From Polytrichum commune (lineage: Eukaryota; Streptophyta; Polytrichopsida; Polytrichales; Polytrichaceae): a DNA stretch of 64,000 bases. The DNA is taken from assembly GCA_950295325.1 (NCBI GenBank), contig OX485804.1, positions 62,001 to 126,000 of the forward strand, read 5' to 3'. Within the stretch, counting starts at the first letter, position 1. Every line of letters begins with the position of its first letter. The translations under genes and the position numbers were made by a program. The notes under the pieces were generated by a model. It saw nothing but the letters and a program-made list of their open reading frames with translations. It searched no databases and was not told where the DNA came from. Below are positions 3,723 through 29,764 of the stretch, in pieces.

Positions 3723-3755
3723 TGTGAGTTGTGTGTACATAGGAATATGCTAGGG

Positions 3756-7776: not shown

Positions 7777-8629
7777 GCTCTAGTTCTCCATCTATTCTGA
7801 CTTGTTTTGTGCACGGACGGTTAGGAGAATGTTGTAGATCTAGAGGGAATGGATGAGTAGGAAGTACGGATAGGACAAAGGAGAGGAAACCTGGATCGGA
7901 TCCGACTATAGTACTACGGCTCATTTCTGAGTGTAGTGGGAAGGAAACCTCATTATTTCGGATGTCTGGGTAACGTGCATGTGAGATAGCCATCGTTAGG
8001 ACTAGGTAAGATCAGGGAGGTGCCGGACTTACGCCATCCGACCTTCTGAAGAGGTCTCATAGTCTTTGGGCGGGATAATCCAGAAAGTGGCACGAATCGC
8101 CCAGTTATCCCGAATTAACCGATCTCCGGCCGAATCTTGACCTTTCTGTCGTTGTAGTTCCGGGAACCATCCGGATTCTCTGTGTGACCTGTCAGGAAAG
8201 ATTAGGCCTATCCGGACTGGTTGTGAGAGAAATCCAGATTCTGACCATATAGGGATGTCTTCACCGGATGAACCAAATCATCAATGAAGGTAGGAAGTAG
8301 GTAGGTAGGTATTGAGGAAAGATGCATGTAGGAGTAAGACTTAATTAGAGAGGTTCAATCCGGAAGGCAAGACCCAGAACAAGGACTTCCAAAGGGCTAT
8401 CTGGATCCGGAAAGCCGATCCGGCCAGTGGTCGCCTTTTAGGCAGGAAAAGTGTGTCCCTGACATCCTGCACTTCACAGAATCCCTGGACGATACTCGGA
8501 TCATCTGGACAAACCAGATTAGGCATTGAAAAACGCCTATCCGGAAACTTTTGGTGTTCATGTGCTCCCACATCATTTACGAACGTTCGTTCGTAAAGTC
8601 AATACTAAATGTTTATGTTCTGTTGCAGA

Positions 8630-9924
8630 TGGCCAGATCAAGCAGAAGCGCGATAGAAATGTTCGCAGTGCAGGTCGATCGCCTCCCAGAGTCGGTGTCC
8701 GACGACAACGGCAACGACAACTATGTCCCAAAGGAGGACTTCATGGGGGAGTGGATGGCAATGCCGGAGAAGACCGCAGACGGACTCTTCTGCATGCGTT
8801 TCACCTACGAGCTGGAGACAAGACCAGACCAGCCAGAGCAATGGGTGCAAATGAAGACGTGGGAGATAGAGTCAGTAGAGGCACATGGCGAGTATGTGAT
8901 TCTGGACATGAAGAACAAGAAGGATCACGTAAACCTCATGTTGAATTACATGAAACACAACTTCTCCTACACATACGCCCAAATGAACGTAGTAGAAGAC
9001 GCCAAACACTTTGACGTGGACGGACTCTTCTCTAAATACACCTTGAGCCCATACTGGACAGCAAGGAAATTGACCGGCCTCGCATTAAACATCTCTTAAT
9101 ACAACAGTGTGGTCACGGAGGCCAACAAGAAGAAGAAGAGCCCCAGGAAATCATCCACATCAAGGGCAGGAGGATCGAGAAGTGCACCCAGGCCTGTGCC
9201 TTCGGTGAGCAGAGCGACCGACGGTCCCAGCAGACACTCTACGCCATCTAAGAGGACGAGGGAGGAGATGGAGAAATCTGGCTTAACAGAGACCGCGGAG
9301 GTGAGCTCGCCTCCTGGAATGCCTACCCCCTTGAAAAAGGGTGAGAACCCGGACACTGTCAAGGCCACTAGGATCCTTCGAGACTCCAACAACTACTCGA
9401 AGGATTGCTGGCACATGGGACGCCACTTCACATTCAACGTGGACTGCTTTAAGTGCGAGAAGTCCCCCAACAAGTAGGTGGTTAGGTCTCACGAGAGCGG
9501 GGGTGTGAAATGGCAGATAAACAATCTCATGAACAACATCAAGTGGGATAGGCAGACCGTCTGCGTCATGCCCAAGGGGCTGAGATCCTGTCCGACGGAG
9601 AAGGACTGGCCACGGATCCAGAATGGAGAGTTCTGGATCATTGACGGACAACACAACTTGGAGGCGTCCCAGATAATACTCAAGGACGACAACTTCCAGC
9701 ACGAACTGAAAGCAAATTCGCGTTACTGGAAGGCGTTCTTGGTGTGGTCGGACGATTGGGACAAGCTGCGGAAGATTTCCACCTTCCTCAACTCCGGCAA
9801 CAAGATCAAGGCATTTGAGGCGTCATGGGCTGCCAACATAGTGGCTGCAAGAGACGTCTGGGTCGCGCACGGGTGCCCCCCTAAGGAAAGGGAGAACGCC
9901 AAGACACCGTCACCACAATGGAAG
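8630..9924 (+). pseudogene. Composite gene exon 2: unknown N-terminal domain and ParB/DGQHR-like domain
   Basis: The ATG at 8630 follows directly on an acceptor (TGTTGCAG). One frame runs to the donor AAG|GTGAGT at 9924/9925, with TAA at 9097-9099 and TAG at 9475-9477 inside. Residues 1-155 form an unrecognised acidic domain rich in aromatic residues. Residues ~160-245 are a Lys/Ser-rich linker. The last ~190 residues contain FWIIDGQHNLEASQIIL. This matches the core of ParB and DGQHR/DndB-like proteins (a DGxHR-type signature followed by an alanine-rich helix), with Asn in place of the usual Arg. ParB-type folds bind palindromic DNA and CTP or act as nucleases. Which activity applies here is unknown, and the R-to-N change argues for altered or lost chemistry. 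Confidence 0.6.
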
Positions 9925-10041
9925 GTGAGTTTACGAACGAACGTTCGTAAATTTTAAGGTGCACTTCAAGTTTCTTCACAAAGCAATTTACGAACGTGCG
10001 TTCGTATTATGTGCATTACTGACATTTGTTTTTTTCTTCAG

Positions 10042-10115
10042 GTTTTTTGCGATGCGATGGTGAACAAGTTCTCCTATGAAGTCTACAACAACCAAATCTG
10101 TCCTGGAGCTCAAAG
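10042..10115 (+). pseudogene. Composite gene exon 3 (short)
   Basis: A 74-base exon between TTTTTTTCTTCAG and the donor CAAAG|GTGAGC. It reads in frame VFCDAMVNKFSYEVYNNQIC and so on, and leaves phase 2. The following 70-base intron (10116-10185) carries no palindrome, unlike the other introns of this gene. Confidence 0.55.
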
Positions 10116-10185
10116 GTGAGCTCCAACTCATTTGTTGCAACAGAGACACCTGGGAGTTGTGGATATAATTTTTTGATGCGCACAG

Positions 10186-11359
10186 CTCGGGAGATCTTGT
10201 CAACCCCGACACAGAAGAAAAATATAGCGCGGAAAAGACCGGGGAGGCCCCTCCACTACTGAGGGAGTTCTTCAGGTCCCTTCAAGGGTTAACGGAGTCC
10301 GAGTTGTAGAGGTGCACGGTGCATGTTCTTGGGAACACAATGGGTAGAACTATCCCATACCCCAAGATGTTTTTGAAGAGGCCAAAGCACAAGCCCGGTA
10401 CGTATTCCATCAAGGAATGGTGCGACCACCGCAAGATGAAGACTGTTGCAATGAGGGAGTTGAGCGCCCTAATACCGGAGTACGCACACTTCCTAGCCGA
10501 CGGGGACGTGAATTGGGCCAGTTGGAAGATGTTCAAGGTCGATTACAACATCTCCGGAGCCTCGATGCATTATCTTGTCAAGGAGCACGCCTCCATTTTG
10601 AAGCAGAAGGGGAACAAGAGAATAAAGAAAACCGAGACGGATCCCCAGGAGGTGGAGCAATACAAAAGGTTTTTGGCGCGGAAGAGGATGGCCACATTCG
10701 AGGGAGTGGCCAGATTTTGTGTGGTGACAACCGGCTTAGAGAGAACAACTTTCTTTAAGTGGGACGGCACCATCAGCAAGGCCGAGGTCAGGGAAGACCG
10801 ACGGGGGTGCCCATTTGCCCTGATCGATTTCAGGGGGATCCTAGGTGCGTCGAGGCAGGGGACGAAGGACATGCCCTTCTACAATCCCTTCATGGCGAAG
10901 TTCATGGAGTACAAGTCGCCGGCCATGAAGGAGCCTCACGTTTGGCTGTGGATAGTGGAGCATGAGAAGTTGTCTGTCGTCACCGAGTTGTACGAGGAGA
11001 CGATCAAATTCGAGTACAGTATCTTCCACAACACATATGTGCCAGCCAAGACGGAATGGATCGTGGCCATCAACGAGGCCAGGGGCAACAAGCAAGTGGG
11101 GGCGGTCAGCCTCATTTTCTTGATGTACAACGTGCTTAGGCATGGGAGAGTACCTGTCAAGGCGAACAGCACGTTCAAGAAGATCTACAGCATCCCACAT
11201 CCCCCTCCCAAGGATCTGCTGCAGGAGACTTTGTACACTGTCTTCCCGACGTTGGAGCTCAGGTTGGAGTTCTACATCTCCGTGTTGCAGAGCATGGCAA
11301 TAAGCGGAGAGACTGTGTACAACGTCTGTGGAGGCAGCAAGTTCATGTACGCTGCGATG
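10186..11359 (+). pseudogene. Composite gene exon 4: degenerate DNA methyltransferase-like domain
   Basis: The exon opens SSGDLVNPD, passes TAG at 10307-10309 and ends at ATG|GTAAGC. The C-terminal ~200 residues follow the order of a beta-class N6/N4 adenine/cytosine DNA methyltransferase. A strand ending FALIDFRG sits where the catalytic DPP(Y/W) motif IV should be. VWLWIVEHEKLSVVTELYEE resembles the strand-helix after it. H-P-P-P-K-D-L-L resembles the 'H..KP..L' motif. GETVYNVCGGSKFMYAAM resembles motif I (GD.VLD.F.GSGTT..AA), continued in exon 5 by MLGLVVNSYVDAMD where real enzymes have LGR...EID..Y. The catalytic Asp-Pro-Pro is absent and motif I is altered, so methylation activity is unlikely. 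Binding to DNA or SAM is possible. The fold call is inference from motif order. Confidence 0.5.
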
Positions 11360-11498
11360 GTAAGCTCTCCAACCAATATTTACGAACACTCGTTCGTAAA
11401 GTTCATGACAACTTGTTTTAGGGACTTGGCATTGTTTCTCGTCGTTGATGTTTACGAACGCACGTTCGTATATTCTAACGTATTTGTTTGTACCTCAG

Positions 11499-12951
11499 AT
11501 GCTGGGACTAGTCGTCAATAGCTACGTTGACGCCATGGACGAGGAGGAGTTCCAGGTGCACAGGGCGAAGGCGTCCACGATGGACCTGGAGGACATGTCC
11601 CTCCCAAGGACGGACATCAACATACCCGTCGACAAGGGCATACCCAGCATGGAGACGGACAACAACGAGCCCGTCCCCTCCGCCAACCTCGAGGCTATTG
11701 TCCGCTCCTTCGACGTCACGCCTCTCCGAATTTTGGCGCCGGCGGGAAATCCATCCGACGTGCAGGGGACTCCGGGTGGGTACACAGGGTCGTCCGCGGG
11801 GACAACCCAAGATGTCCTCCCCCCGCGAACGTCTGCAGCAGAGGCCTTCGGCACTCCCGGGGGATGCTCGACTTTCGTGTCGCCCAGGCCCGTCGTGGTT
11901 CCCAAGATGGAGAACCTCGATGTTCTGGACCAACGTTCCCGTCCGTCCTTGGACCACTTCCGCAACACGAGGCGGAAGATGAAGAAGACCCCCTACGTGG
12001 AGCTGCCTCCGGGGTCAATCATCGAGGTCTCCGATGAGGACGAGGGAGACATCGAGATAATGGTGGAGCTCGGGGTTGACTTCGGCAAAAATAAACGGGT
12101 CAAAGAAGAGGCCCTCTCCGTCGCCGAGCTTAACGCCAAGCTCGAGCAGAAGATGAAGGAGGACATGGCGAAGGCTGCGGAGGAAAATGCCAAGAAGATG
12201 TTCCAGATTCAGGAAGAGCTCAAGCAATCCAACGAGAAGACGGATGCCATCCTCGCCATGCTCAGCAGGATGCAGAGCTTCTCGGCGCCCCCCCAGCCGG
12301 CGTATCCTTTCCCTGGAGGATACCCATCGCAGTACCCCCCGCCAGCCCAATACCCCCAGCAAAGCCAGTTCCCAGGAGAGACTTCCCCACCAACAGGCGC
12401 CCCACCCTACGCATGTGGGCACCCCTCCGCCACCAGAAGTTCCCACGACCACCTCGCACGATGCTGTCGCGGCGGCCATCCAGGAGGACGAGGATTTACG
12501 AACGCGCGTTCGTGAATCTTCAGGTCCTGCAGTCCTCACCCCTCCACCTTCAAGGGTAGGACTGCCTTCAAAGACTGTGGAGGGTTCTTTCGTCGTCGTC
12601 CCTAGGGTAGTAGATAGACAGGGCGATGACTTTGCGCGACACACTGACATGGTCATTGTGGAGGACACGCAGGGGAGCCCCAATGACGCAGCAGGAGTGC
12701 AGGGGATGGACGTGGAAGAGACCCCTGCTACGTGGATGGAGGATGTCCGGATGGACGCGCTCGACCTGGGCGTTGAGGACGACAACGCGCTGCGCATCCA
12801 GCAGACACAAGCCTCTCAGTCAGAGCGTGAGGCGGAGTCCATGGAGACGGAGGCGGCTGCGGCTGTGGATGTTACGAACGCGCGTTCGTTAATCGTTGAG
12901 GAAGGACCTGCTGCTGGGTCCAGCGTCGCTTCCCCTCCCCCCGATGACAAG
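11499..12951 (+). pseudogene. Composite gene exon 5: acidic/Pro-rich linker with coiled coil
   Basis: Acceptor TACCTCAG is followed by ATGCTGGGACTAG, in frame with exon 4. It completes the methyltransferase-like motif I region, then becomes low-complexity. A coiled coil (ELNAKLEQKMKEDMAKAAEE) is near 12125-12250 and a Pro/Tyr/Gln-rich stretch near 12285-12380. A +1 frame change at about 12.39-12.41 kb is needed to reach the second half (EVPTTTSHDAVAAAI onward), which ends PPPDDK at the donor AAG|GTAACT. Two palindromes (12498-12513, 12874-12889) lie inside the coding frame and are translated as LRTRVRES and VTNARSLI. Confidence 0.5.
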
Positions 12952-13578
12952 GTAACTCATCTCTGAGAATACCATTTTTTTACGAACGCGCGTTCATAAC
13001 CTCACTAACCTAGCGATGTTTTTCTCTCCATCGACATCCCGTGCCTTCCGAGAGCCCTCTTCAGCTTTAGTGCCCGACCAATTTTAGAGCCCGGCCAGTT
13101 TTGTAGAATACGGCATCATGTTGCCTTAGGAAACTGTGATAGACTATCACGTGAGACATGTAAATATTCGTCGGATCAATATATGAGCTTATTTTCTTTT
13201 CATTGCATTGCTTCAAATTTTGTGCCCTCGACCCCTTCTTGTATTGTGGATGTTGATGCGATTATGTTCATTCTTGCGTACCCACCTCATTCGCGAACGC
13301 TCGTTCGTGAAAGGGTGCGACCCCCTGTCCACCTCCTTCACGAACGACCACTCGTAAATGTACGTGTAGCCGTGCTCACGAATGAGCGCTCGTAAATGAT
13401 GCGCATCACCGCCGGCAACCTTCATTCACGAACGCTCGTTCGCAAGTGTGCCTTTGAGCACATTTTCCTTACACTCGTCCTCACTTCCTCGTCTTTTTCC
13501 ATAATGCATCGTCATTTCCCTTAATGCAATCTTATTTATTGGATCATAGAATTAAACTAGTCGAGTTGTTAATCACAG

Positions 13579-13638
13579 GACCCCCCGGAGATAGGTCGCA
13601 ACCCCTCGACCAGTGGACCTCACACCCGACAAAAACCG
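13579..13638 (+). pseudogene. Composite gene exon 6, part 1 (before the copia insertion)
   Basis: AATCACAG|GACCCC opens an exon reading DPPEIGRNPSTSGPHTRQKP. It is cut after CCG at 13638 by the copia element. The duplication AACCG (13634-13638 and 27346-27350) lets the exon be rejoined without gain or loss at 27351, where the frame continues into a HAD nucleophile motif. Phase agrees with the donor at 12951. Confidence 0.65.
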
Positions 13639-14065
13639 TGTTATAGAATTAGTATCAGAACTAATTAAAGCAATCTGATGAGGCTTAGGGTGCAGCTAGA
13701 TGAGGCTTAGGGTTAATACCCGGATCCAGGGTCTTAGTAAAAGGATATAGACCCTAGACACTTAGAGGGTACACTAAGTAATTAGCCTGTAGTAAAGGGA
13801 ACCCAATCAGGGTATCCCGAGGGTATCTAAGACTTAAGCTAGAGTATGGAGCTTACACCCCGGATATCCCGAGGGTATCGACCAGGTTATCAGCCTGGTC
13901 GGTATGGCCAGTCCTACGGTGCAATGAGATAGTGCCACGTGATTATACTGTATTAAAATATTCTGAAATACTCTATAAATACACTCACATACCATATACG
14001 GGTATGACTGAGATATGCACCTACATACTGTCCAAAATACACTATCTCTATTCCAGTCTACAACA
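13639..14065 (+). repeat. 5' LTR of copia copy 1
   Basis: 427 bp. It contains a G-box-like CACGTG at ~13936-13941, a TATA box CTATAAATA at ~13972-13980 and a 15-base direct repeat, TATCCCGAGGGTATC, in two places (~13817 and ~13865). The leader after the LTR starts CGTTATCAGCAC, which may be an unusual primer-binding site. Confidence 0.9.
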
Positions 14066-14407
14066 CGTTATCAGCACTTGCTCCTGGCCTACTTTCTACA
14101 CATTTTTCATCCATACTACATATTCTACTCTGTTCATATGTATAGCTTACTTATACTCCATCCGGTGAGGAACCCGAGTGAACACATGAGTGAATGCTTT
14201 AGTATTACACATATTTTGCTTATCATTTAGCTTTGCACACACATCTCTGTTAGTAGAACATCTTTTCATACTCTGATACTATACTTCATCCATATTAGAA
14301 CCTATTCTATTCTCTGTTCATTTCTCTACTACCAGGAGGGGGGTTATGCTGTCAAAATTTTTACTACTCCACTAGGACTGTTATGCTGCCAAATTTTTCT
14401 CAAAACC

Positions 14408-15380
14408 TGTCGCGCACCTCTCCATGAGGAGTGCCCGAAACACCATGGGCACAAGGGGGACCCCGGAGTGACACCCGGGACTTGTGGCGCCGTTGGTGAG
14501 AGGGCCCAAGTGATCCTAGTGTGGGTGAGGGCCCCGGGCGTTGGGAACGCCTCCCACCCACGGAGACTAGGAGGCATGAGGGTAAGGCCATGAGCTATGC
14601 GTAGCTCATGGCGTGGTGATTCTAGAATGCTCAAGATCACCTCAATCGGAGGTGTGAGCTAGGAGTTATGGCCATTTGAGTGGGGCGCTGTCCCGGGACA
14701 GCGCCCTGGTGCAGCAGTGCCTGGGAGTGATTCCCGGGACTGCCAAGGTTCAAACAGGCATAACTTCCTCAAGACTTGCCTGAATGGGGCAAGTGAGGAG
14801 TCCATCGGCATCTACGTGAAGCGTAGATGAAGATGGAGTGGTCACGTGTAAGCATCAGACATTGTACAAGGAAGTTATGATGGTCTGAAGCTGCTGGGGG
14901 GTTCTAAGCCCAGCGGCTAAGGGAAAGTGTCCACTTGGCCCCAACTCTTGGTAGAGAGACAAGAGGTTGGTTGACGGTGGGGTAGGGGCCCCGCGTAGAG
15001 TCCTAGAGGCTTATATGGGTGAGGTGGTGTGGCCTCACCCACCCGAGGCCGAACGGCAAGGCCTCCATGGGCAATGGCCCATTGTGAGGCTATAGTTGCC
15101 TAGTATGGTTCGGGTTGTTGTAGTGTTGCTCCGGCAACACGATGATCAACATAGGATTGGACTTCCATGGATGGAAGTCCACATCTAGGAATGGGTTACC
15201 GATTAAGGGGTGAGTCCCGAAAGCAAAGTAGGAGGGTTGGTTCCCTCCTATGAACTATAAGGTCCGGGGTAGGAGGAGCTAATCATTAGCATGGCGGAAT
15301 GCGAATGGTTAGCACTCGTAACCTTTGCTAGAATTGAAAATTGGCAAGATTGTCAAGGGGGGCTAGCAAGGGTTGCGACA
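14408..15380 (+). repeat. 5' LTR of the nested gypsy element
   Basis: 973 bp, same length as its partner. TATA-like CTTATATGG is at ~15010. It contains a palindrome-like GAGCTATGCGTAGCTC near 14590. An open frame on its minus strand recurs in the 3' LTR and is not a gene. Confidence 0.9.
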
Positions 15381-16059
15381 CTTGGTATCAGAGCAGGGTT
15401 CCAAGTTTTGAGCTCGCACTTTGAGGGAAACATGTCTATCAAAAATGCGGGTTATGATGGTGAGCCCGGGGTTTCCAAAAGGTTGTGAGGCTCAAATTGG
15501 AACAAGGATCATGTGCAAGTGGAATTTGACCATACCATTGGTTCTAATGACAATGGTGGGCATGAGGGTGGATTTGGTAAGGAAAATGGAGGAGTGCTTT
15601 GAAAGGGCTCCCTCAAACCTCAAAAAACATTTGGGGCCTAGAATACCGAAAGCACCCAAAACCTTGGAGGGCATTAATGTTGGATTGAAATTCCAATTTG
15701 AAATGCTTGGAAGGTATTGATGTTGGAATGAATTTGGTGCTAATGAGGCACCCCGGGCCTGTTAAGGCCTATGTGCGCTATTCAAACGCACAAATGAAGG
15801 ATACACCTAAAACGGACGAGCTTTCTAAGAAATGCATCCTTTTAGGTGGGGTTTTAAAAGCGGGTGGTGGATGCCTTGTTTAAGTCCCTAAGGCTTCTTG
15901 AGGACATGGTGGGGACCATCAAGTTTGCAAGAGCATTGAAGCCGATGGTCCCAAAGAGAAGTTTGGCGGCGCATCACCACAAGTGGCTTTAGCCAAAGTA
16001 GGTCCCAAAGAAATGAGTGCAAATTGTTTGGTCCATTTTACTTAGGCAAAACATGTTGG

Positions 16060-16330
16060 TGCCGCGGACGGAATGTTGAAAGGTGGCTTTATGCTTCCAA
16101 AGCAAATCATACTTGTGCCGCGGACGGAACCTTGGCAGGTGGGTTTGTCCTACCAAGGCAATTCATGTTCGTGCCGCGGATGGAGTGTGGGAAGGTGGCT
16201 TTGTGCTACCAAGGCAAAACATGTTTGTTTTGCGGACAAACTATTAGAAATTGGTTTTGTGGCACCAAACCAATTTATCCCGCGGACGAAATGTTTAAAG
16301 TTGGCTTTGCGGACCAAGCCAAGCCAAGTT
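16060..16330 (+). repeat. 56 bp tandem repeat in the gypsy gag region
   Basis: GCCGCGGACGGA-like words recur at 16061, 16117, 16173 and (degraded) 16229, a period of exactly 56 bases, followed by looser copies near 16281 and 16310. Because 56 is not a multiple of three, each unit is read in a different frame, so this is not a protein repeat. Confidence 0.75.
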
Positions 16331-17203
16331 GCCGAGGACCGAATGTAAGACGATGGCATTGTGGCCAAGGCTAGTAGCCTTAAGCCAAGGCCAAATCTTT
16401 TGTACCTTGAGGCTCAATGAATGGGAGAAATGTCTCATGTGTTGACAAAGAGGCTACCACTCCTTCTTGAGCCCAAAACTCACAAGGGAGTTGGGGCTTG
16501 CCGATTGATAGAGAAAGCAAGCCCACCAAGGTGCGGTTTGGAAAGGGCGAACCGCATGAGACAAAGGAGGCCGCGATGCATGTAACCTTTCAATGTGGGA
16601 CATTGGATTTTTGTCAAAATTTCACACCATGTGAAATAGATGAAATGCATGTCATTGTGAAGGCCGCCTACTTTGAAACTCACATGATAGATGTGAGGTG
16701 CAAGCCGGTGAGCTTGCGGTGCATTATGATGTGTCATAATGGAAAAGAATTGAAGTTCAAATTGACAAGGACTCCTATGGTAGGAGGACCCAAGTTGAAT
16801 TTGGTCTTAATGGACCAAATGAAAAATAGAAAACATAATGGTCGTGGTTCAATTGGAGCAACTCCAAGGAATGTATGGGGAGGCTAGGAAAGATGGGCCT
16901 CCTCCAAACCACATTGGTGGGATGTTGGTGAGATACAAGGATGTATTCACCAATGTGTTGCCCAAAAAGTTACCGCCAAGAAGTGAAAAATAACTTTGCT
17001 CAATGAGAGATTGAGTTCTTGAGGTATGTGGTGACAAAGGAAGTTGGTGGACGAACATGAAGAATGTCAAGGCAATCCAAAAAGAGAATTGGCCCTTGAC
17101 TCAAGAAAAGGGCTTAGGTCATTTGTTGGCCTCGCCAACTACTACCACCACTTCATTCATGGTTTTTCTAAGGTTGCTAGAACCTTAGTCAACATGTTGG
17201 AAA

Positions 17204-17880
17204 AAATGGCTATCCCAAGAGTGGGATGAGCCTTGTCACCAAGCCTTTGGAGAGCTCAAGAGTAAGTTCTCTTCACAAGATGTGGTTAAGTTTCCGGGTT
17301 TTCATGAGCATGTTGAGGTGCACATGAAGGCGAAGGACTTTACCATTGGCGGATGTTGATCCAAGATGGATGACCATTGCTTATGGGAGCATTAAGCTCC
17401 ATGGTTGTAGAAGCTTGTCCAACTTGTGCAAGAAATGGCTATCCCAAGAGTGGGATGAGCCTTGCCACCAAGTCTTTGAGGAGCTTAAGACCAAGTTCCT
17501 CTTTACCACCCGTGTTCAAGTTCGCGGAGCTTGAAAAACCTTTTGAGGTGCATACGGGGGGCGAGTGACTTTACCATTGGCGGATGTTGATGCAAGATGG
17601 ATGGCCATTGCACATGAGAGCGTGAAGCTCGATGGTTCGACTTGTGAAAGAAATGGCTATCCCAAGAGTGGGATGATGTTTGTCACGAGTCTTTGGGGAG
17701 CTTAAGCCAAGTTCTCTTCGCCGCCCGTACTCAAGTTCGCGGAGCTTGACAAACCTTTTGAGGTGCATACGGGGGTGAGTGATTTTAACAATGGTGGATT
17801 ATGTGTAAGATGGATGGCCATTGCATATGCGAGCATGAAGCTCGATGGTTGTCAAAGAAGACAACCAACTCATGACAAAG
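17204..17880 (+). repeat. Threefold tandem copy of a pol segment
   Basis: AAATGGCTATCCCAAGAGTG occurs at ~17204, 17433 and 17651, each followed by related sequence (CACCAAG/GCTT, GGAGCTTAAG, GAGGTGCA, GACTTTACCATTGG, GCCATTGC). The ~220-230 bp unit covers the RT-connection/RNase H start. The intact family normally has it once. Confidence 0.75.
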
Positions 17881-20476
17881 AACTTCTTTGCGGTAGTGCA
17901 TTGCTTGAAGATGTGGCGACACTAGTTGGGGTCGCACAAAGTAAAGGTCTACAAGGACAATGTGTCCTAAACGTATTTTGACATACAAGCGCAAGTGAGC
18001 GCCAAGTCATTGCATTGGCATGATAGCTTGGCGCTTATGAAGGTGGATCTAGTCCACAAACCGGACCGTGGAAATGTGGTGCCGGATGCGCTAAGTAGAC
18101 CGGAAGAGTTCCAAGCAATGAGAACCATCCAAACCTTGTGGCTTATGTGTGCCGGCGAAGGAAACTTGTGATGCAAGATACGGGAGGGGTAAATTAACTA
18201 CCCCAAAGCACAAAAACTTTTAGGTGAGCTTTGCAAGAGCAAGGTGCTCAAAGAGGTTAAGTTGGTGGACGGATTGTTCAAGTATAAGCAAAGTTGGGTG
18301 TATGTGCCACAAGGCAAGTTGAGGCTATCGGTTTTGAAGGAGGAATATGATAGTCCTATTGCCGGCCATAGAAGAGAAAGAAAAAACCGCCATAGAATGG
18401 TGTCAAAGAGGTACCATTGGCGGTGCATAAACTAAGATATAACCCACTTTGTGAAGGCGTGAATAAAGTGCCAAGTGAACCAAGCCTCTTACCAAAACCA
18501 AGGCAGTCTCTTGCAACCTTTGCCTATCCCGTGGGCGCCATGGCATAGTATGTGCATGAACTTGATCACAAGTTTGCCGGAGTCACATGGGTATGATGCC
18601 ATCTTGTTGATGGTAGAGCGGTTTGCCAAGTTGGCACACATGGTGCCGATTGTGGGAACCGCCACCGCGTTGGAGACCGCATAGCCTTTTCTCAAAGGAT
18701 GGTTGAGGCACCACGGGTTGCCAAGAGTGATTGTGTGGGATCAAGATCCAAAGTTCACAAGTGCATTTTCAATGCATTTCTCTAAGGAGGTCGGAATGAA
18801 ACTAAGGTTTAGCACGACCTTGCATTCCCAAGTGGATGGGAAAGCGGAGCGTGTGAATGGAGTCTTGAAGCAATACTTGAGGAACTTGGTGGGGGCGGAC
18901 CAATGAGATTGGGCGGACTATGTGGGTCGAGCGGAGTGTAATTGCAATGTAGCCACGCACTTGACAACCAATGGGTGGTCTTTCGTGGTGGCTTATGGAG
19001 TGGATGCGCTCCAACCTATTAACCTAGCTCTCGAGGGGGCACATTCAACACTAGAGTTCAACCAAGATGGTGAGGACTTGGCCAAGGATGGTAAACAAGT
19101 CTTGGAGATGACCAAGTTGTTGGTGGAAAAAACCCGAAGGTGCTACGGAGTGCAAATCAATGCCGGAAGACGCGAAGTGGAGTATGAGGTGGGCCAATAA
19201 GGTGTTGTTGAATGTGGACAACTTCACCTTGCCCAAAGGCCTTACTGCAAAAGTTCATGTCCAAAATTGGAGCTTCGTTTTCCATTGTGGAACAAGTGTT
19301 CAAGGACATGTATGAGTTGGAATTACCGCCGGAGATCAAAGTGCATCCGACATTTCATGTCTCATTATGAAAGTCATTTTAGGACGACACCTTGTGGCCC
19401 GATCACAAGCAAGTGATTAGGCCACGTCCCGACCTTGTGGAGGCCATTTGGAACATGAGGTAGGAGGGCACCCTCAAGTGTAGGAAGCCCAAGTGAAAAT
19501 GAAAGAAAATGTACAAAAGAGTACTTGGTGAAATGGTGAGGATACCATGAAAAAAAAACCGCTTGGGTGGCGGCAAGAGACATGGTGAACACCAATGAAT
19601 TGGTGAAGCACTTTGAAGAAACTAAGGCTAAGGATTCCAATAAAATGAAGCGTAGGCATTGATGAGGACATCAATCTCCTTTAGTGGGGGAGAGACGCTA
19701 CTAGCACACTTAGCTTCGAGGTTAATTACTCCACAACATGAACTTGTTCTTTGGCTTGAGGGAATAAAGTCCAAACTTTAGTGGTGCAAAGAGAAAAGTA
19801 TGAGATGAGGTCCTAGTCTTGTACTTGTGCTTGGTTAATGGAAGAGGGGGAATAGACATGCCAAACTAGGTTGGGTAAGCCGAGTAATTGGGGGCCATGG
19901 CTTGGAGGGGCCTTGGATAAAACCAAGAAACTTCTTAGTTGTGGGCTTGTCCGGGCGGGGACAAGGTGATGGCGCGTGCTCATAAAAGTGCTACCCGCGA
20001 GCTAACGAGAGTTGGCGCATGGGAGTCATGAACCCATGTCTCGAAAGAGCAAAGTGGGAACCGAGTCGGGCGGGACTTGGCATCACCCCCGTGCGATCGA
20101 GGCGTGGCTTAACAATGGAAAGCCATCTCGGAGTTGCAACCGAGACAACTTAGTGGAAGCGTTGAGGTCTCGCCTAGATGTGTCACGTTAGGCTAGTGGA
20201 GCCTAACGGGGGAGGCCCCAAAGGAGGGGCAACCCAAGTGAGTCCCAAAGTAGGTGGGTCTAGTATAGGTTAGGTCCTTGGAGGAGAGATCCAAGGTCGC
20301 TAACAGACCACCTAGGAACGACACCTTTGGAACTATGCCAAATGTGAAGATGCATTGTGGGGGTCGCGCCCTAAGGTAAACACAATGCCGCACCATAGAG
20401 GATGGCAACTTGAGAATTGGTGTGCCGACTACGAGTATAGTCGATGAGGGCATCGACTCCGTTTGGTGGGGGTGAG

Positions 20477-21449
20477 TGTCGCGCACCTCTCCATGAGGAG
20501 TGCCCGAAACACCATGGGCACAAGGGGGACCCCGGAGTGACACCCGGGACTTGTGGCGCCGTTGGTGAGAGGGCCCAAGTGATCCTAGTGTGGGTGAGGG
20601 CCCCGGGCGTTGGGAACGCCTCCCACCCACGGAGACTAGGAGGCATGAGGGTAAGGCCATGAGCTATGCGTAGCTCATGGCGTGGTGATTCTAGAATGCT
20701 CAAGATCACCTCAATCGGAGGTGTGAGCTAGGAGTTATGGCCATTTGAGTGGGGCGCTGTCCCGGGACAGCGCCCTGGTGCAGCAGTGCCTGGGAGTGAT
20801 TCCCGGGACTGCCAAGGTTCAAACAGGCATAACTTCCTCAAGACTTGCCTGAATGGGGCAAGTGAGGAGTCCATCGGCATCTACGTGAAGCGTAGATGAA
20901 GATGGAGTGGTCACGTGTAAGCATCAGACATTGTACAAGGAAGTTATGATGGTCTGAAGCTGCTGGGGGGTTCTAAGCCCAGCGGCTAAGGGAAAGTGTC
21001 CACTTGGCCCCAACTCTTGGTAGAGAGACAAGAGGTTGGTTGACGGTGGGGTAGGGGCCCCGCGTAGAGTCCTAGAGGCTTATATGGGTGAGGTGGTGTG
21101 GCCTCACCCACCCGAGGCCGAACGGCAAGGCCTCCATGGGCAATGGCCCATTGTGAGGCTATAGTTGCCTAGTATGGTTCGGGTTGTTGTAGTGTTGCTC
21201 CGGCAACACGATGATCAACATAGGATTGGACTTCCATGGATGGAAGTCCACATCTAGGAATGGGTTACCGATTAAGGGGTGAGTCCCGAAAGCAAAGTAG
21301 GAGGGTTGGTTCCCTCCTATGAACTATAAGGTCCGGGGTAGGAGGAGCTAATCATTAGCATGGCGGAATGCGAATGGTTAGCACTCGTAACCTTTGCTAG
21401 AATTGAAAATTGGCAAGATTGTCAAGGGGGGCTAGCAAGGGTTGCGACA
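20477..21449 (+). repeat. 3' LTR of the nested gypsy element
   Basis: 973 bp. I saw no difference from the 5' LTR on reading both through, although I did not make a base-by-base alignment. Confidence 0.9.
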
Positions 21450-21454
21450 AAACC

Positions 21455-22422
21455 GGTTCTATCTTACCCCATCTTTCTTCCTGTTCTGTTGCTTTGAACC
21501 CCAGATATATACATGTTTTATTTTGTTTTGATTGCCTGCATATTACTAACATATTTCTGACTCAGTAATTATATACTGAATTACTGTTGAACTTTTGTTA
21601 TAAACTGTATAAATTCACTACCTAACCTGTTTTGTGTGCAAACAGATTAATTGACTAACCCCTGTTGATATATATATACATATTATATATATATATATAA
21701 CTACTAACCATACATATATATACATATTATATATTTATTTATTTTTATTTCCAGAAATACTTACCCATATATATATATTGATATATATATATATTTTATA
21801 CTGAACTAACGCTACGTGTATTTTTTTTACATATATATATATACGTATGATACATATATATCTTGTATAAACTAACATACTGAAATATTTCCTACTTATT
21901 TCAGAACTGACATTTCTGTTTCATATATATATATATATACTATATATATATCAATATTTTAAATATACATATACTTTATATATTTCTGTTTTGATTTATA
22001 CTAACTTATTTCTGGTATTCAAAATAGTACCAAAATGCTGCCAAAATTATGTAAGAATTATCTGAACCCCTCCTCTATCTGTTAACTTGCATTCTGTTTT
22101 GTAAATCTATACAAATTTTATTTCCCCCCCCTTCTGTTTATATACTTACTGTTTGTATCAAATAATTCATGTTTCCAGAATTTCTGTTTGTTTCTATTTT
22201 GCCTGTCAGTATACCCCTTTCTGTTTAATCACAGTTTCTCACCCATTTACACCAACTTAATCCTTCTGTATTTAATCTGCCTGATTCCGCATTTTCTGTC
22301 TAACTAATTTCTGCCTAATTACATATACCCCCCCCCTCCCTCCCTTCCTCCATAATTTTTGTTTTATATACCACTACCCTGTTGTAAATTCTGCCATTTT
22401 CCAGAATATATAAAATCACAAA
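21455..22422 (+). other. AT-rich leader of copia copy 1
   Basis: The untranslated region resumes after the gypsy insertion. It holds (TA)n tracts (~21670-21700, 21770-21800, 21925-21960) and T/C-rich stretches up to the ATG at 22423. The mirrored sequence is present in copy 2 at about 40709-41690. Confidence 0.85.
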
Positions 22423-25400
22423 ATGGTAGAATCCAGGTTACAAAATCTTTTGTTCTCACCTTTACATGCTGATGGCTCCAATTTCTTAGAATGGATAAAT
22501 GATGCTAGGACAGTCTTATGTGCAGAAGACCTAGCTAAAACATTAATTCACCCTCCACTAGCTCCTTTACCTAACACCTCTGCTGATGAAGCTGACGAAA
22601 TTCCTGCTGTTCCTGCCGAGGTACCTGCTGTTTCCAAATGGCAAGCACTTGCCTTATTACGACGCCATATGGATCAAGACTTACGACTGCAGTATTTACA
22701 AATCGACGACCCTGCGGACCTGTGGGACATGCTTCAAACACGATTTGATCATCAACAAACTCTTTTTCTCCCACAAGCACGCACGGACTGGGCGAATTTA
22801 CGAGTCTTGGATTTTCCCGACTTTGCGACTTTCAATTCTGAACTTCATCGCATCGTGGCGCAGCTCCGTTTGTGCGGCCAACGAGTAACTGAAGCTGAGA
22901 TGGTGGAGAAGACGTTGTCCACATTCCCACCAGCAACAGCGATCCTGTCCCAGCAATATCGCAATATGAAATTCAAGAAGCATGCCAACCTGATGTCGCA
23001 CCTGCTGTTGGCGGAGAAGCATCAGCAGCTGCTACTCCGAAATGCCGAATCCCGCCCTGCACGAGAAGTCCACACCACTACTGCTGCTGTACCTGCTGTT
23101 GGGGTCGAGGCATATGCTGCTGAAACCTCACGAAGACCAGCCAGAGGTTCTTTCCGGAAAACTTACCCCTCACACATGGCAAGAGAGAAGGGAGCCTATG
23201 GTAAGAGCGATGTGCATAAGGGATTTCATAAGAGGGAGGAAAATACACGGAGAGAACCCCCTAGGCCCCGTCCCAACCAATTTAAACCTAGAAATTTTCA
23301 GCCTAGACAATTTCAAGGTAATTGTCACAAATGCGGACGAAAGGGTCATTTTGCTAAGGACTGTAGAGCCCCAGCCTATATCACCAACATGTTTAAGGAA
23401 TTACAACACCTTCGAACCCAAACCAGGCAGAATTATAATTTTGAAAATCCCAACCCCGAACCTTCTCTGTATACCGAAAACATCGAGAATTACATGACTA
23501 TCTACGAGCAGCACTCATCTAAACCAAATGAGGCTCTCCTAGATAGTGCATCAACCCATACCATCCTCACAAACCCCGCATTTTTCCATTTCAGAGGAAA
23601 TGAAGAACCCTGGCAGCATTGTACAATAACTACAATGGCCGGAAGCCGAAATATAAGATTTCGGGAGGGCCGGGCAACGGTGATCTTGCCCGGGGGATTC
23701 CCCCTCAATTGCGAACGAGCAATGTACGCCCCAGACGCCCCGAGGAGCCTGATCAGCTATCGGGATCTGAGGGCGAGGAATATCCACGTTTCTACTGCGG
23801 TAGAAAATGATGAAGAGGTTCTGGAGCTCAGGCAAGGGCTGATGATCCTTGCCACCGCGAAAGCGGGAGACGACGGCCTATATAAGATTGTCATAAATTC
23901 CCTTGACAATGAAAGCCCCATCTCACTGATAGATGAGGAAGAGGTGTGCATGGCAGCTTGGGCTGAGAACCCTGAAGCAAAACGCCGCAACCTGGCGAAG
24001 GGAGTGTTTATTAACACTAAAGCCAAGCCTGATTTATGGCATGAGAGACTAGGACATCCTGGCACGACAGTTTTTCGCCGGATGCTTCCTTTGCTGCTAG
24101 GGCATAACCTTATCACAGCAGATGCAGGGAAAACCACAGAATGTATAGCATGCATCCAAGGGAAATTCATCAAAAAGCCTTCAATATGGAAATTACCAAA
24201 TGAATTACCACCACCCTTGCATAGGCTTCATGGGGATATATGTGGCCCCATTAATCCCCCATCAAGAACATTTAGATATTATTTTGTTCTTGTAGATGCA
24301 TCTGGGAGTCACTCTGAGGTAGTACTCCTCCCAACCAGAAATATGGTTTTCCCAAAGCTTTTGGCAATTATCCTCCGATACAGAAACCATTTTCCGGACA
24401 ATCCAATTAAATACCTACGGATGGATAATGCACAAGAATTTAGGTCCCACGCCTTTGAAGATTATTGTATAGCCACAGGAATTACCTTAACCTACTCGGT
24501 ACCCTATGAACACTCACAAAATGGGTTGGCCGAAGCGTTTATAAAGAAAATACAACTTATTGCTAGGCCTTTACTGTTACACGCTAACCTACCTTCTAAC
24601 CTGTGGGGCCATGCTGTTTTGCATGCAGCATCTTTATTAAAACTCCGTCCTACCCTTCTGAACACCCAGACCCCACACGAGTTACTATCTGGGAGACCTC
24701 CAGATATTTCCCATATTCGGGTATTCGGCTGCCAAACCTGGATACCCCTCCCTGATCCACATAGACACACCATTGGCGCACACCGCCAAGAGGGTGTTTA
24801 TGTGGGCTTTGACTCACCCTCCATAATAAGATACCTTGATCCCAAAACCCTTAACCTATATAAAGCCAGATTTCAAAACTGCCGCTTCTTAGAAACCAGG
24901 TTCCCAACCCTACCTTCACCACCTAACCCACCTACCTTGAACTTTGGTGCACCAGAGACATTAACCCTTAACCCAGACCCTCCAACCCAATTAGCCAATA
25001 TAGAAGTTAGTAAACTTCTGAAATTAAGACTCCTGGCCGAATCCACACCTGATGGATTTTCAACACAGCCCCGAATTATTCGAAACCCTTTACCTGGCAC
25101 AGGCAATATTTTACCAAGGAAACGTCCTGGCCAAATTCCAGCCACCTTCCCACCTTCTAAAAATCCTAAAATCCATTTTACAACCGAGTCTCTTGACTCG
25201 AATCCCGAACCTGATCCCATAAACTTAGACCAGGCCATGATAAGTTCTGACTGGCCTCATTGGAAGGCTGCAATAGAAGCTGAATATGCTTCATTGAGAA
25301 AACATGGAGTCTTTGCTGAAATTACATCAGACCTTGATAAACAGCCTATAGGGCATAAACTAATATTCACACGCAAACTAGACTCCCAAGGAAACACCCT

Positions 25401-26828
25401 TAGGTACAAAGTCAGATTAGTAGCCCAAGGGTTTACACAACGACCAGGAATAGACTATGATCAGACCTACTCCCCTGTCATGGATTCAGTTTCCTTTAGA
25501 TATCTACTAGCCCTATCTGTTCAATTAAACCTGAAAATATACCTACTTGATGTAGTTACAGCCTATCTACATGGTAATCTAGATACCAGATTATACATTA
25601 ACCCACCCCCTGGATTTCTGAAGTCCACACCCAAGTCCAAACCTGGAAAATTTACTGGACTAAGAATATGCAAAGCATTATATGGGTTAAAACAGTCTGG
25701 TAGAGCTTGGTATCACCACCTATCTAACTTTCTGATATCTTAAGGATTTGTGCATAATAAAACCTTACCCTGTATATTTACCTACACATTCAATTCTGGT
25801 TTTGTGATACTTGCAGTATATGTGGATGATTTAAATATCCTAGGGACACCAGATTTATGTAAGTATGCTCAAGATATTTTGACCAAGCATTTTGACATGA
25901 AATACCTAGGACAAACCTCTTATTGCCTAGGCCTGCAAGTACACTATGTACCTAATGCTGGTATCCTCTTACATCAACAAGCTTATGTGCAGAAAATCCT
26001 TAGGTCTTTCCAAATGGATCAAGCTAATCCATTAGCAGCTCCTATGATAGGACGCAGTAAGACTAATGATGATCCTTACCAACCTCGTGAGGAGGAGGAG
26101 GAGGTAATTGACAAACCTAAATACCTCACAGCGGTTGGTGCCCTAACCTACCTTTCAACCCATACTAGACCTGATATCTCATTTGCAACCAGTATATTAG
26201 CCAGACATAGCCAAAACCCAACCTCAAGACATTGGAACGGGGTCAAACACTTATTGAAATACCTGAAAGGAACATCTGACCTTGGACTTTACTACCACAA
26301 GACTGACCAACCTGATATCCAAGGTTTTGCAGATTCTGGTTTAGAACTGATATGAATGCAGGGAAATCCCAAACTGGCTACATATTTCTGAAATGCGGTG
26401 CCCCGATATCTTGGAAGTCTACGAAGCAAACAGTCACGGCTACATCAACGAATCACGCTGAATTGTTAGCTTTTCACGAAGCTGCCCGAGAAGTTGTGTG
26501 GCTGCGAACAATGGAGGACATTCTGAATTAACAATGCAAGCTCAGATTTCCGAACCAGCCGACCACAATTTACGAAGACAATTCGGCTTGTGTTAGACAG
26601 ATGTCAATAGGATTTATTAAAGCAGATAGGACTAAGCATGTGAGCCCACACATATTTGGATTTTCACAGGACTTAATAGATCAGAAACAATTGAACATTG
26701 TAAAGATAGAGTCAGAAAACAATATTGCTGACATGCTTACAAAAGCACTACCAGCTTATAAGCATAAGAGACTAGTTTATGCAGCTGGGCTTAGATCACT
26801 CCAAGAGCTGACCTCATCTGATAGTTAG
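22423..26828 (+). pseudogene. Copia gag-pol polyprotein, copy 1 (two stops and one frameshift)
   Basis: The first frame (1106 aa) holds gag with a CCHC knuckle (CHKCGRKGHFAKDC), an aspartic protease site (LLDSASTHTIL, Asp-Ser-Ala where Asp-Ser/Thr-Gly is usual), the pre-integrase motif (LWHERLGHPG), the integrase triad (LHGDICGP, LRMDNAQEF, GLAEAFIKK) and the RT start (KVRLVAQGFTQRPGIDY, ALYGLKQSGRAWY). TAA at 25741 interrupts RT before AVYVDDLNILG. A 1-base deletion near 26340 breaks RNase H, and TAA near 26527 follows. The remainder (KADRTKHVSPH, NIADMLTKALP) ends at 26828. Domain order protease-integrase-RT-RNase H defines copia. All three defects recur in copy 2. Confidence 0.93.
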
Positions 26829-26906
26829 TGCTCTTTTCTCTAGTTAAGGTTTTCCCAAAAACTGGGTTTTTACTTAGCAGAAATTTTAATGAGGCTAACT
26901 CATCAG

Positions 26907-26918
26907 CTTGAGGAGGAG
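26907..26918 (+). promoter_or_regulatory. Polypurine tract of copia copy 1
   Basis: CTTGAGGAGGAG directly abuts the 3' LTR start (TGTTATAG). It is the expected plus-strand primer. Confidence 0.75.
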
Positions 26919-27345
26919 TGTTATAGAATTAGTATCAGAACTAATTAAAGCAATCTGATGAGGCTTAGGGTGCAGCCAGATGAGGCTTAGGGTTAATACC
27001 CGGATCCAGGGTCTTAGTAAAAGGATATAGACCCTAGACACTTAGAGGGTACACTAAGTAATTAGCCTGTAGTAAAGGGAACCCAATCAGGGTATCCCGA
27101 GGGTATCTAAGACTTAAGCTAGAGTATGGAGCTTACACCCCGGATATCCCGAGGGTATCGACCAGGTTATCAGCCTGGTCGGTATGGCCAGTCCTACGGT
27201 GCAATGAGATAGTGCCACGTGATTATACTGTATTAAAATATTCTGAAATACTCTATAAATACACTCACATACCATATACGGGTATGACTGAGATATGCAC
27301 CTACATACTGTCCAAAATACACTATCTCTATTCCAGTCTACAACA
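26919..27345 (+). repeat. 3' LTR of copia copy 1
   Basis: 427 bp, followed by the duplication AACCG and the rest of the phosphatase exon. One substitution against the 5' LTR was noticed (CAGCCAGA here). Confidence 0.93.
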
Positions 27346-27350
27346 AACCG

Positions 27351-28010
27351 TTCCTCGTGTTTGACCTCAACGGGGTGTTGTGTCACACCCAACACATCCC
27401 TAGGGTCCCCACTCGTCCTTTCCGTCACCCCGACGAAAGGGACTACGACGGCGAGCTCGACACCCTCATTAACCGCAAGGTTGTCCGTGCCCGTCCCGGC
27501 TTGCGGGACTTCCTTTGTGAGGTGCTTGAGTTCGCTCACGTCATTGTGTGGAGCTCCATAGTCATGGAGAACACAGAGCCCATCATCCACTTCTTGTTCC
27601 GTGATCTCCCGAGCCCTTGCCTTGTCCTCGGCCAAGAGGACTGCGACGAGTTGCTCGACGAGAAAGGTCAACCGGTGCCCAAGTTTGGTGGTCGAGGCAG
27701 AGGACAACAGTTCCTCAAGGTCCTCCGGTCCAGACTATGGCGAGGCGTCCCCCGGCTGCAGGGGACACCCCACGGGTGGTGGCCGACTCTGGAGAACACC
27801 CTCCTCGTCGACGACAACCCCACCAAGAGCGTTTTGAACCCCTCGGGCAACGCCATCTTCCCGGACACTTGGACCGGCGATAGGAAAGACATTTTTTTGG
27901 TCGATAGGCTAGCCCCCTACGTTAGAAGGCTTGTGCTCCACACCGGTAGCATCCCATTTTTTGTTAGGTCCAACCCTATCGGCAATGCGGCACTAAGCCC
28001 CCGCGATAAT
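27351..28010 (+). pseudogene. Composite gene exon 6, part 2: FCP1/SCP-type HAD phosphatase-like domain
   Basis: Immediately after the duplication the frame reads FLVFDLNGVLCHT, the nucleophile motif of the FCP1/NIF (NLI-interacting factor) HAD family, where the usual form is DxDxT/V. The second acidic residue is Asn here. RPGLRDFL...VIVWSSIV matches motif II (Thr/Ser at the end of the strand) and TLLVDDNPTKSVL matches the acidic motif IV. The domain is ~200 residues, normal for the family. FCP1-type enzymes remove phosphate from Ser in proteins such as the RNA polymerase II tail. The Asp-to-Asn change would weaken the general acid/base role. The open frame itself runs to TGA at 28056-28058, but GATAAT|GTATAT at 28010/28011 is an in-phase donor to the next exon. 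Confidence 0.7.
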
Positions 28011-28159
28011 GTATATAAGAGCATCATTAAGCTCGCCAAATTCAATAAATTGATTTGAAATTCATCCTTGTCTCGCTTGTTATCATGTGTTTCCTCATAT
28101 CTAATGTTTTCTCCGTTTTTGGATGTCTTCTTTGTTGTTGTTGTCATTGTCGCCCATAG

Positions 28160-28685
28160 TCTGCCCCCATATGTGGCGCCCCGGTACTCGACGGCCCTTC
28201 CCGTCCCCTCTCGCCCCCTGCCTCCCCTTCCCGCGACGTCACGGACTTCCAAATGTCATCCCTCTACCAGTTCTTGGCGGTGGCCGCGGCCTCGGCCGTG
28301 GATTACTCCCGTGACGTCGGCATCGACGACGGCGTCGTCAACAGCCCGCCCCCCAAACTTGTCGCCCGCGCGTACGCCCCGTCGCCCTCCCCCCTCTCCA
28401 AGGAGAAACGGAGGCTTGTTCGTTTGGGACACCTCTCGCCCCGAGGGACGACGCCATCGCTCGTCGCGGGCCCACCCGGCGTCTCCGCATGGAAGGCCCC
28501 CGTGCCACACCTCCCCCTCCGACTCCGTTCCTCCCCCCCCCCCAACCTCCTCCGCCCTGGTCGGCCCTCCGCGCCTCCATTCCGACCCGTTATTCAACAG
28601 TGCCTTAAATCGATCGGCTCCGGATGCTCCCGTCGACGCCCTCCTCGTGCCCACCGTCCCCCGCGTGGATGTCCCCAAGGCCAAG
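28160..28685 (+). pseudogene. Composite gene exon 7: Pro/Ser-rich tail with a C-run frameshift
   Basis: The acceptor GTCGCCCATAG|TCTGCC starts a GC-rich frame (SAPICGAPVLDG, later SSLYQFLAVAAASAVDYS). The end reads sensibly only in another frame (NSALNRSAPDAPVDALLVPT, PRVDVPKAK). The switch falls at or before a run of about ten C near 28531-28541, a likely indel site. It ends AAG|GTGCCC. Confidence 0.45.
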
Positions 28686-28706
28686 GTGCCCTCTTAAACC
28701 CCAAAC

Positions 28707-29320
28707 GGGTGCAAGCACGGTAAAGTGGACAACTCCTGATCCATGCCTAGTGTTCAGTGAAAGTGATTCAAAACTATACACTAACTTTGAATTTTGTGAA
28801 GAAAAAAATCATAGACATTTTTAAAACATATTGATCTACAAAGCCAAGCAAATTATGATGACAAAAAAATTCCAAGAAAAGTCTACATATTCTAGAAGAC
28901 GGTACAAGTGATGTGCAAGTAGGTGATATTGAACAAGTGACTCTCTAAAATTTGTTTCAAGTACGATAAACTTACACTAAATTGATGGTTTTCCACAAAG
29001 TTTTATGATGATGCCGTCAAGTAGATAATGAATTCAAGGAATATGAAAGAAATTTCCAACTTCAAAATAGTTAAGGTCATGAAATCTACGTCCAAAACCA
29101 TACTCAACCATTTGCTTTTGAGCATCACTTTTAATGATAAGTATTGAAGATCTCAACTTGATTTTCTACATTTGAGTATTCAACACAACAACAAAGGTCA
29201 TCATGAAAAGAAATCCAATTCAAACAACGCTTTGCTATTACTTTTAGGCCTTTGACCAAAAAAACTATGGTTTTAGTGTACCGGAGCATTTTTTTGGTCC
29301 ACTTTACCATGCTTGCACCC
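28707..29320. mobile_element. 614 bp MITE-like element in an intron of the composite gene
   Basis: A 24 bp terminal inverted repeat begins GGGTGCAAGCA at 28707-28730. Its complement is at 29297-29320, with one mismatch. A possible 4 bp duplication, AAAC, is at 28703-28706 and 29321-29324. The interior is AT-rich without coding potential. It lies between the donor at 28686 and the acceptor at 29455, so it lengthens an intron. The superfamily is not assigned. Confidence 0.7.
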
Positions 29321-29455
29321 AAACCCCTTTCCCGCATTTGCTTTCCTTGTCTTGCGTGTGCGTGCCGTTATCTTTACGAGCGCCCACCCCAAACCGCTCT
29401 CATTATTTTCCCCACTCCATTCTTATTCTTATCTTCCTATGACGTTGTTTCGCAG

Positions 29456-29764
29456 GTGGCTACCCGCTCGCTTGGTGCCTGGCCCTCCTCCACGTCTTCC
29501 TTGGATAGGCACGCCCTCAAGGCCGCATCTTCCGAGTCCGATTGTTGTTTGTCCCTCCGCCGAAGTGCAAGACATTCCCTCTCGCAAACGCACTCGTATT
29601 CCACTCACAATACCACTTCGTACAATTCGGGAGCGCGTCTGGAAATATGGAAGAACGACACGTATTCCGGGCCCGTCAACAAAAATGGTTATAGCCGCGG
29701 GCCTGAGATTTTCAGAGCCATGGAGGCTGCCAAAATCAAGGACAAGGCCGCGAAAAAAAAATAG
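29456..29764 (+). pseudogene. Composite gene exon 8: C-terminal tail
   Basis: TTGTTTCGCAG|GTGGCT opens a frame in phase with the previous donor. It reads VATRSLGAWPSSTSS and ends KIKDKAAKKK then TAG. No domain is recognised; it is Ser-rich, then basic. That this is the end of the composite gene is inferred only from splice sites and phase. Confidence 0.4.

Follow-up and report, generated by a model that had tools for sequence, protein, structure and literature searches.

A giant DNA transposon family of the moss Polytrichum commune with a ParB-like, methyltransferase-like and FCP1-like accessory gene and family-specific palindromes

Two kinds of described system bear on the locus analysed here. 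According to PMC12477816, the 21.5-kb Sola-1 element of Ectocarpus (Sola1-1_Ec32) encodes a 1104-amino-acid ParB plus methyltransferase protein opposite its transposase, and comparable proteins are cited there from green (Iyer 2011) and red algae (Petroll 2025); Sola elements in general carry inverted repeats, make 4-bp target site duplications, can exceed 15 kb in length and occur in Physcomitrella (PMC10741241, PMC9033089). The second system is VANC of the Arabidopsis VANDAL transposons, a transposon protein described as binding family-specific motifs in introns and upstream regions and removing methylation (PMC5735166). Our window, a stretch of 64,000 nucleotides from the moss Polytrichum commune (contig OX485804.1, positions 62,001 to 126,000; G000:C2:62001-126000), contains a decayed transposon copy with an accessory gene whose three parts we call ParB-like, methyltransferase-like and FCP1-like. 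The arrangement resembles that of Sola1-1_Ec32, likened by description, in that an accessory gene combining the first two parts in one protein appears to lie opposite the transposase of a giant DNA transposon; it differs in adding the FCP1-like part, in its replaced methyltransferase motifs and in its family-specific palindromes.

The host genome (408 Mb, 64 contigs) encodes chlorophyll-binding proteins, as expected of a green plant, and moss structures (7xqp, 8htu) are among its best matches to solved structures. It contains this gene many times over. The methyltransferase-like open reading frame (ORF) of the window is 75-100% identical to 103 matches listed, of 1168 candidates, in its own genome, and the many equal-scoring matches to this exon mark it as belonging to a repeat family. 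Loci of 10 kb fetched around 18 of these matches are mutually alignable, with 97-99.8% identity within the closest group, and those that reach the right end of the element stop at ACCGAATATAGTGTT, beyond which the host DNA differs. A reference copy of 16,097 bp (L040+L019+L039) has the terminal inverted repeats AACACTATATTCG at both ends; the 131-bp left end occurs in at least 40 copies (of 771 candidates, all 40 scored matches are 100% identical, with two weaker matches besides); and a perfect 4-bp target site duplication (AGTG, ATGT, AAAG, AGAG or AAGT) encloses five of the eight copies in which both flanks were read. Near the left end of the reference copy, the minus strand contains two long ORFs, one of which matches DUF7869 (E=4e-40), a family with 150 matches listed of 1491 candidates in this genome; from its position and abundance, we infer that this gene is the transposase. 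The accessory gene occupies the opposite, plus strand of L040 and L019, and 16 of the 150 FCP1 matches listed (of 965 candidates) have a DUF7869 match on the opposite strand 12-16 kb upstream, against none on the same strand among the matches listed. By its ends, duplications and copy number, the accessory gene is thus part of a multicopy DNA transposon. A first-pass annotation of the window had placed the gene in a family but missed the transposon, which carries its other gene to the left of the window. The element is Sola-like in its 4-bp duplications, inverted repeats and size, a likeness of structure in which the link through the transposase is the DUF7869 match only; DUF7869 itself is absent from the open-licence literature searched. 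A retrotransposon, suggested by three loci (L022, L023 and L027) that start inside the element and share its 3' end, is rejected because the reference copy is bounded by inverted repeats on either side. A viral or prokaryotic gene was also considered and rejected: alignment A1 has no relative in viral_contigs or genome_contigs, where none of its pattern matches (10 and 30, respectively) was confirmed, and P0053 has no relative among phage records. The reference copy itself is embedded in a GC-rich tandem satellite array (L040 658-1814, L039 915-1919).

The annotation had predicted that intact relatives of a nuclear ParB-like, methyltransferase-like and FCP1-like gene should exist, and they do. 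We compared 20 fetched loci, the 18 above and two taken from the FCP1 list, beside which no methyltransferase match is listed; in all 20, the methyltransferase-like and FCP1-like parts are found together rather than apart, ordered on one strand, stop-free and at full or nearly full length. The ParB-like part is whole or nearly so in 17 of them, three of which have stops in it; its frame is broken in L022, and L023 and L027 have a shortened version. Exon 3, which includes a variable linker, contains stops in L022, L023, L026, L029 and L035, and L037 has it split. Even the two FCP1-list loci hold all three parts, at 35-36%, 36% and 43-44% identity for the ParB, methyltransferase and FCP1 parts, in that order. 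Among the matches listed, 58 of the 103 methyltransferase matches have an FCP1 match on the same strand within 6 kb downstream and none has one on the opposite strand; the mean for shifted positions is 0.07. Between families, the ratio of nonsynonymous to synonymous substitution rates (dN/dS) is 0.03 in the ParB exon (one comparison; another was saturated), 0.07-0.12 in the methyltransferase exon, 0.26-0.28 in the linker (exon 3) and 0.09-0.14 in the FCP1 exon, and it is 0.35 for the ParB exon of the near-identical pair L034/L035; on these ratios, the parts of the accessory gene are under purifying selection. Metagenomic relatives number 49 for the methyltransferase part, 31 for the ParB part and 37 for the FCP1 part.

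As first described, the three segments stand in order on the plus strand as one gene with open exons in other copies of the same genome, and the window copy is broken: tblastn against an intact copy finds two stops in each of the ParB and methyltransferase exons, and the frame of exon 3 is disrupted (near 12391-12470). We model four exons, with the start codon at 8629 (Table 1). Junctions 9924/10042 and 11359/11499 are GT/AG in each of the ten copies examined, and L037 and L038, although distant, have introns 1 and 2 at unchanged positions. In P0077, a metagenomic protein of 863 amino acids, the ParB and methyltransferase parts are joined without intron 1. Junction 12951/13579 has its donor in eight of ten copies, and its acceptor residues (SQ|GPSE) are retained in relatives P0088, P0089 and P0101; intron 3 measures 583-618 in eight copies, with acceptor alignments below the cut-off. 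The other three of the six junctions in the annotation had to be given up as coding features. At 10115/10186 there is no intron, intact copies and P0077 reading through it as coding sequence, and junctions 28010/28160 and 28685/29456 are not needed because the FCP1 frame continues to a conserved ...NKL(I/V) end: the stop after ...NKLI (28058 in the window) is kept in eight of eight copies, and the same C-terminal end is found in relatives P0088, P0101, P0115, P0116 and P0117 (41-72% identical). The sites at 28010/28160 are GT/AG in all ten copies, yet the FCP1 frame runs on; a second open frame passes through the fifth exon that had been proposed. A fusion of all three parts in one protein is suggested by the order of the exons and by their splice sites, with P0077 as further support where the ParB-like and methyltransferase-like parts are concerned.

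Profile comparisons make kinship to FCP1 strong and kinship to ParB and to methyltransferases weak, so that the domain assignments of the annotation fared unequally. The FCP1 part matches PF03031 at 56.5 bits and, in an intact copy, 60 bits (gathering cut-off 21.8). In place of the catalytic DxDx(T/V), it reads DLNGVL in the window, L019, L033-L035, L037 and L038, and likewise in 11 of 37 FCP1 relatives, most of the others beginning after the motif. Three host loci outside the element (L002-L004, with LDVNGLL or LDVDGLL) align to it with scores of 194-202 (58-70 identical residues of 159-197 aligned), well above the score of 73 for the classical DLDETL host protein L001, which suggests that the FCP1 domain was captured from a plant gene. 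No curated family matches the ParB part; among its 31 relatives, a PHROG ParB-like family gives weak matches to nine (best 0.0077), DUF6551 matches six (best 0.024), and GmrSD_N and DGQHR match one each. A DGQHS box is present in 27 of the 31, and when the profile of this part is compared with four ParB proteins, that box falls on the ParB box with a score of 19.8. The methyltransferase part also matches no curated methyltransferase family, including, in Pfam, N6_N4_Mtase (PF01555). Compared with nine phage N4/N6 enzymes, its profile aligns best at motif I, with a score of 30.4 that none of 198 shuffles attains; when reversed, it scores 13.0, and neither of the two cross-comparisons reaches significance (36/100 and 9/100). 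However, DPP[YWFL] occurs in none of the 49 relatives, D[FL]R..P replacing it in 43, and the glycine pattern of motif I is replaced by GG[ST]K in 35, so that the methyltransferase-like part is probably inactive. Profile searches of the PDB gave no credible match, and those of NCBIfam only scattered single matches.

The non-coding parts of the element are marked by a recurrent palindrome. In family 1, this is the 20-bp motif A, TTACGAACGNNCGTTCGTAA, which is also the source of the odd peptides YERAFVN, LRTLVRK and TNARS in translated introns. Allowing up to three mismatches, all 30 sites in the reference copy and its surroundings lie inside the element and none in 8.9 kb of flank (0.05 in shuffles): 19 are upstream of exon 1, in two clusters, introns 1, 2 and 3 hold two, two and five, and exon 3 holds two, whereas exons 1, 2 and 4 and the following 1.5 kb hold none. 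The window has 27 sites in element parts and none in the insertions or in 30152-64000; the 12 in 8577..13445 fall ahead of exon 1, within the three introns and in the linker of exon 3. Family 2 (L037 and L038) has a different palindrome, motif B, TTTGGGTCGNNCGACCCAAA, in 20 and 23 copies: 11 upstream, three in intron 1, two or six in intron 2, two in exon 3 and one in intron 3. Exons 1, 2 and 4 again have none, and a single weak site lies behind L037. Motif A is found in 18 of 18 family-1 loci and neither of the two family-2 loci, and motif B shows the reverse. Both motifs also recur in a count of exact 8+2+8 palindromes made free of any motif, in which the only other listed repeat was seen twice, in L035. 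The two families share a similar palindrome layout but differ in the palindrome itself.

Clustered, family-specific palindromes in non-coding DNA, together with an encoded ParB-like protein, suggest self-recognition. On balance, we lean towards reading gene and palindromes as a self-recognition system, probably for anti-silencing, that would work like Arabidopsis VANC. Bacterial ParB binds parS sites. In the system proposed here, the exons would be spliced into one protein, whose ParB-like part would bind the palindromes of its own family, so that the protein would settle on no element but its own; there, the methyltransferase-like and FCP1-like parts, lacking the usual catalytic residues, would serve as binding or effector modules, and the most likely outcome would be an element that is kept unsilenced and transcribed. 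Both the palindrome binder and the anti-silencing step are candidates by analogy. As with VANC, the family-specific motifs are clustered in non-coding parts of the element and differ between related families; unlike in VANC, a 20-bp palindrome serves as the motif, with a ParB-like protein as its candidate binder. The likeness is one of layout logic, and a VANC-like mode of working would need no kinship to VANC proteins. Several observations weigh against this proposal. The ParB comparison has an hhalign probability of only 0.6%, with 2 of 199 shuffles reaching its score, and unrelated Pfam families match single members of the ParB part at similar E-values; the methyltransferase alignment covers 22 columns at an hhalign probability of 9%. 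The palindrome comparison covers two types in two family groups, counted in the window, the reference copy and the fetched loci, and the binder of the palindromes could be the transposase itself. In family 2, a Met precedes the motif of the FCP1 exon, and this exon could be a separate gene. With regard to the transposon, three of the eight copies with both flanks read are without a 4-bp duplication, the window copy has no matching target site duplication, and in L033 a DUF7869 piece (2-1333) shares its strand with the accessory gene, unlike in the reference copy, so that the opposite-strand arrangement is not universal.

The strongest competing explanation, which we nevertheless consider unlikely, is that of a transposition cofactor: binding of the palindromes by the accessory protein, or by the transposase, would assemble or regulate the transposition complex and have nothing to do with silencing. 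A second DNA-binding protein is found in many DNA transposons, as in the Myb/SANT case described in PMC12730594, and palindrome clusters lie near both gene starts. However, the sites are spread across introns and upstream regions rather than at the inverted repeats, and the final 1.5 kb of the reference copy, up to its 3' end, has none. It is less probable still that the ParB-methyltransferase-like and FCP1-like parts are two neighbouring genes that never form one protein: no protein joining exon 3 to FCP1 was found, gene callers place the start of P0116 and P0117 at a Met immediately ahead of the motif, and family 2 has its upstream Met, but the family-1 FCP1 exons lack such a Met, and conserved splice sites mark both sides of the intron before them, a donor at the close of exon 3 and an acceptor at their own start. 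Active self-methylation, in which a working N6-methyladenine (6mA) or N4-methylcytosine (4mC) methyltransferase marks its own element as the Ectocarpus authors propose, would fit the conserved methyltransferase-like segment and the same gene position and domain pair in Sola1-1_Ec32 (PMC12477816), yet the replaced motifs and the missing curated matches make it very improbable here. A host gene or host pseudogene family unconnected with transposition, to which splicing and conservation might point, is scarcely credible and is contradicted by the copy number, the inverted repeats, the 4-bp duplications, the dozens of identical ends and the DUF7869 gene in the same transposon.

If self-recognition with anti-silencing is correct, its meaning lies in a problem with few worked examples, namely how an element can evade silencing and yet leave the remainder of the genome silent, and a protein accompanied by palindromes that match it would add a second solution to that of VANC. 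A wider proposal, which we put forward tentatively as the less probable of these claims, is that giant transposons of a land plant evolved a sequence-specific, VANC-independent self-recognition, composed of a ParB-derived binder, parS-like palindromes, a pseudo-methyltransferase and a plant-captured FCP1 domain, that leaves the element unsilenced and transcribed and in which protein and palindrome change together while the layout is kept. Given the Ectocarpus and Sola publications, the class of ParB-methyltransferase accessory proteins is already known; of the composite that the first-pass annotation put forward as possibly new, the ParB-methyltransferase protein has been published in eukaryotic transposons (PMC12477816). 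The FCP1 part, the conserved loss of motifs and the family palindromes were not found in open-licence papers, nor was anything relevant on FCP1 or NIF with transposon and ParB, and these three features appear to be what is novel here. The locus would extend such accessory proteins from algal transposons to a plant, and it suggests that they can persist after methyltransferase motifs are lost, DNA recognition rather than methylation perhaps being the function retained.

Table 1. Transposon copy, accessory-gene model, palindromes and insertions in the window.
Feature	Position	Strand	Details
Decayed transposon copy, window part	1..30151	+	blastn vs reference copy L040+L019+L039; split by three insertions
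Palindrome cluster 1, TTACGAACGNNCGTTCGTAA	134..928	.	8 sites: 134, 421, 468, 517, 657, 742, 836, 909
Palindrome cluster 2, upstream of exon 1	4206..4684	.	7 sites: 4206, 4257, 4298, 4450, 4495, 4608, 4665
Insertion 1	4750..8572	.	ends GTGGGAGC/GCTCCCAC; TCATTT flanking both sides
12 further palindromes	8577..13445	.	8577, 9931, 9988, 11380, 11452, 12496, 12872, 12980, 13291, 13338, 13376, 13426
Exon 1, N-terminal region and ParB-like segment	8629..9924	+	IDGQHN box near 9640; 88.7% identity to L019 exon, 2 stops
Intron 1	9925..10041	+	GT/AG in 10/10 copies; missing in P0077
Exon 2, methyltransferase-like segment	10042..11359	+	85.9% identity to L019 exon, 2 stops; motif I profile match
Intron 2	11360..11498	+	GT/AG in 10/10 copies
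Exon 3, methyltransferase-like end and variable linker	11499..12951	+	80-87% identity to L019 exon, two frames
Intron 3	12952..13578	+	donor in 8/10 copies; acceptor residues kept in relatives
Exon 4, first piece, before LTR insertion	13579..13638	+	tblastn match of FCP1 exon 13576-13656
Insertion 2, long terminal repeat (LTR) retrotransposon	13639..27345 (about)	+	divides exon 4; 428-bp terminal repeats 99.8% identical
Exon 4, second piece, FCP1/NIF-like domain to stop	27346..28058	+	PF03031 3.6e-15; 89% identity to L019 exon, no internal stop
Insertion 3	28702..29320 (about)	.	about 0.6 kb, inverted ends

The transposon copy in the window has its 3' end at 30151, an end shared with five other loci, and its 5' inverted repeat to the left of the window at G000:C2:57981 (the end sequence is found in L069); its DUF7869 gene is disrupted by stop codons. 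The "second partial copy" that had been reported at 1-105 belongs to this same transposon, as the reference copy holds the same internal duplicate; in the latter, the duplicate (L040 5582-6016) lies beside the DUF7869 gene and is about 65% similar to the element's own exon 3/intron 3. Insertion 1 (3.8 kb) contains a long gag-like ORF at 5872-7074. Insertion 2 is, judging by its terminal repeats, a very young LTR element; it contains a copia-type ORF (22414-25743) and an identical pair of 973-bp repeats (14408-15380 and 20477-21449), and sequence related to its content lies inverted at 31010-31480. The sequence of insertion 3 also occurs, inverted, in L039 at about 3178-3790, 2.3 kb behind the reference copy. 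Elsewhere in the genome, fourteen light-harvesting genes with equal Pfam score lie within 95 kb (G000:C5:1751760-1846160).

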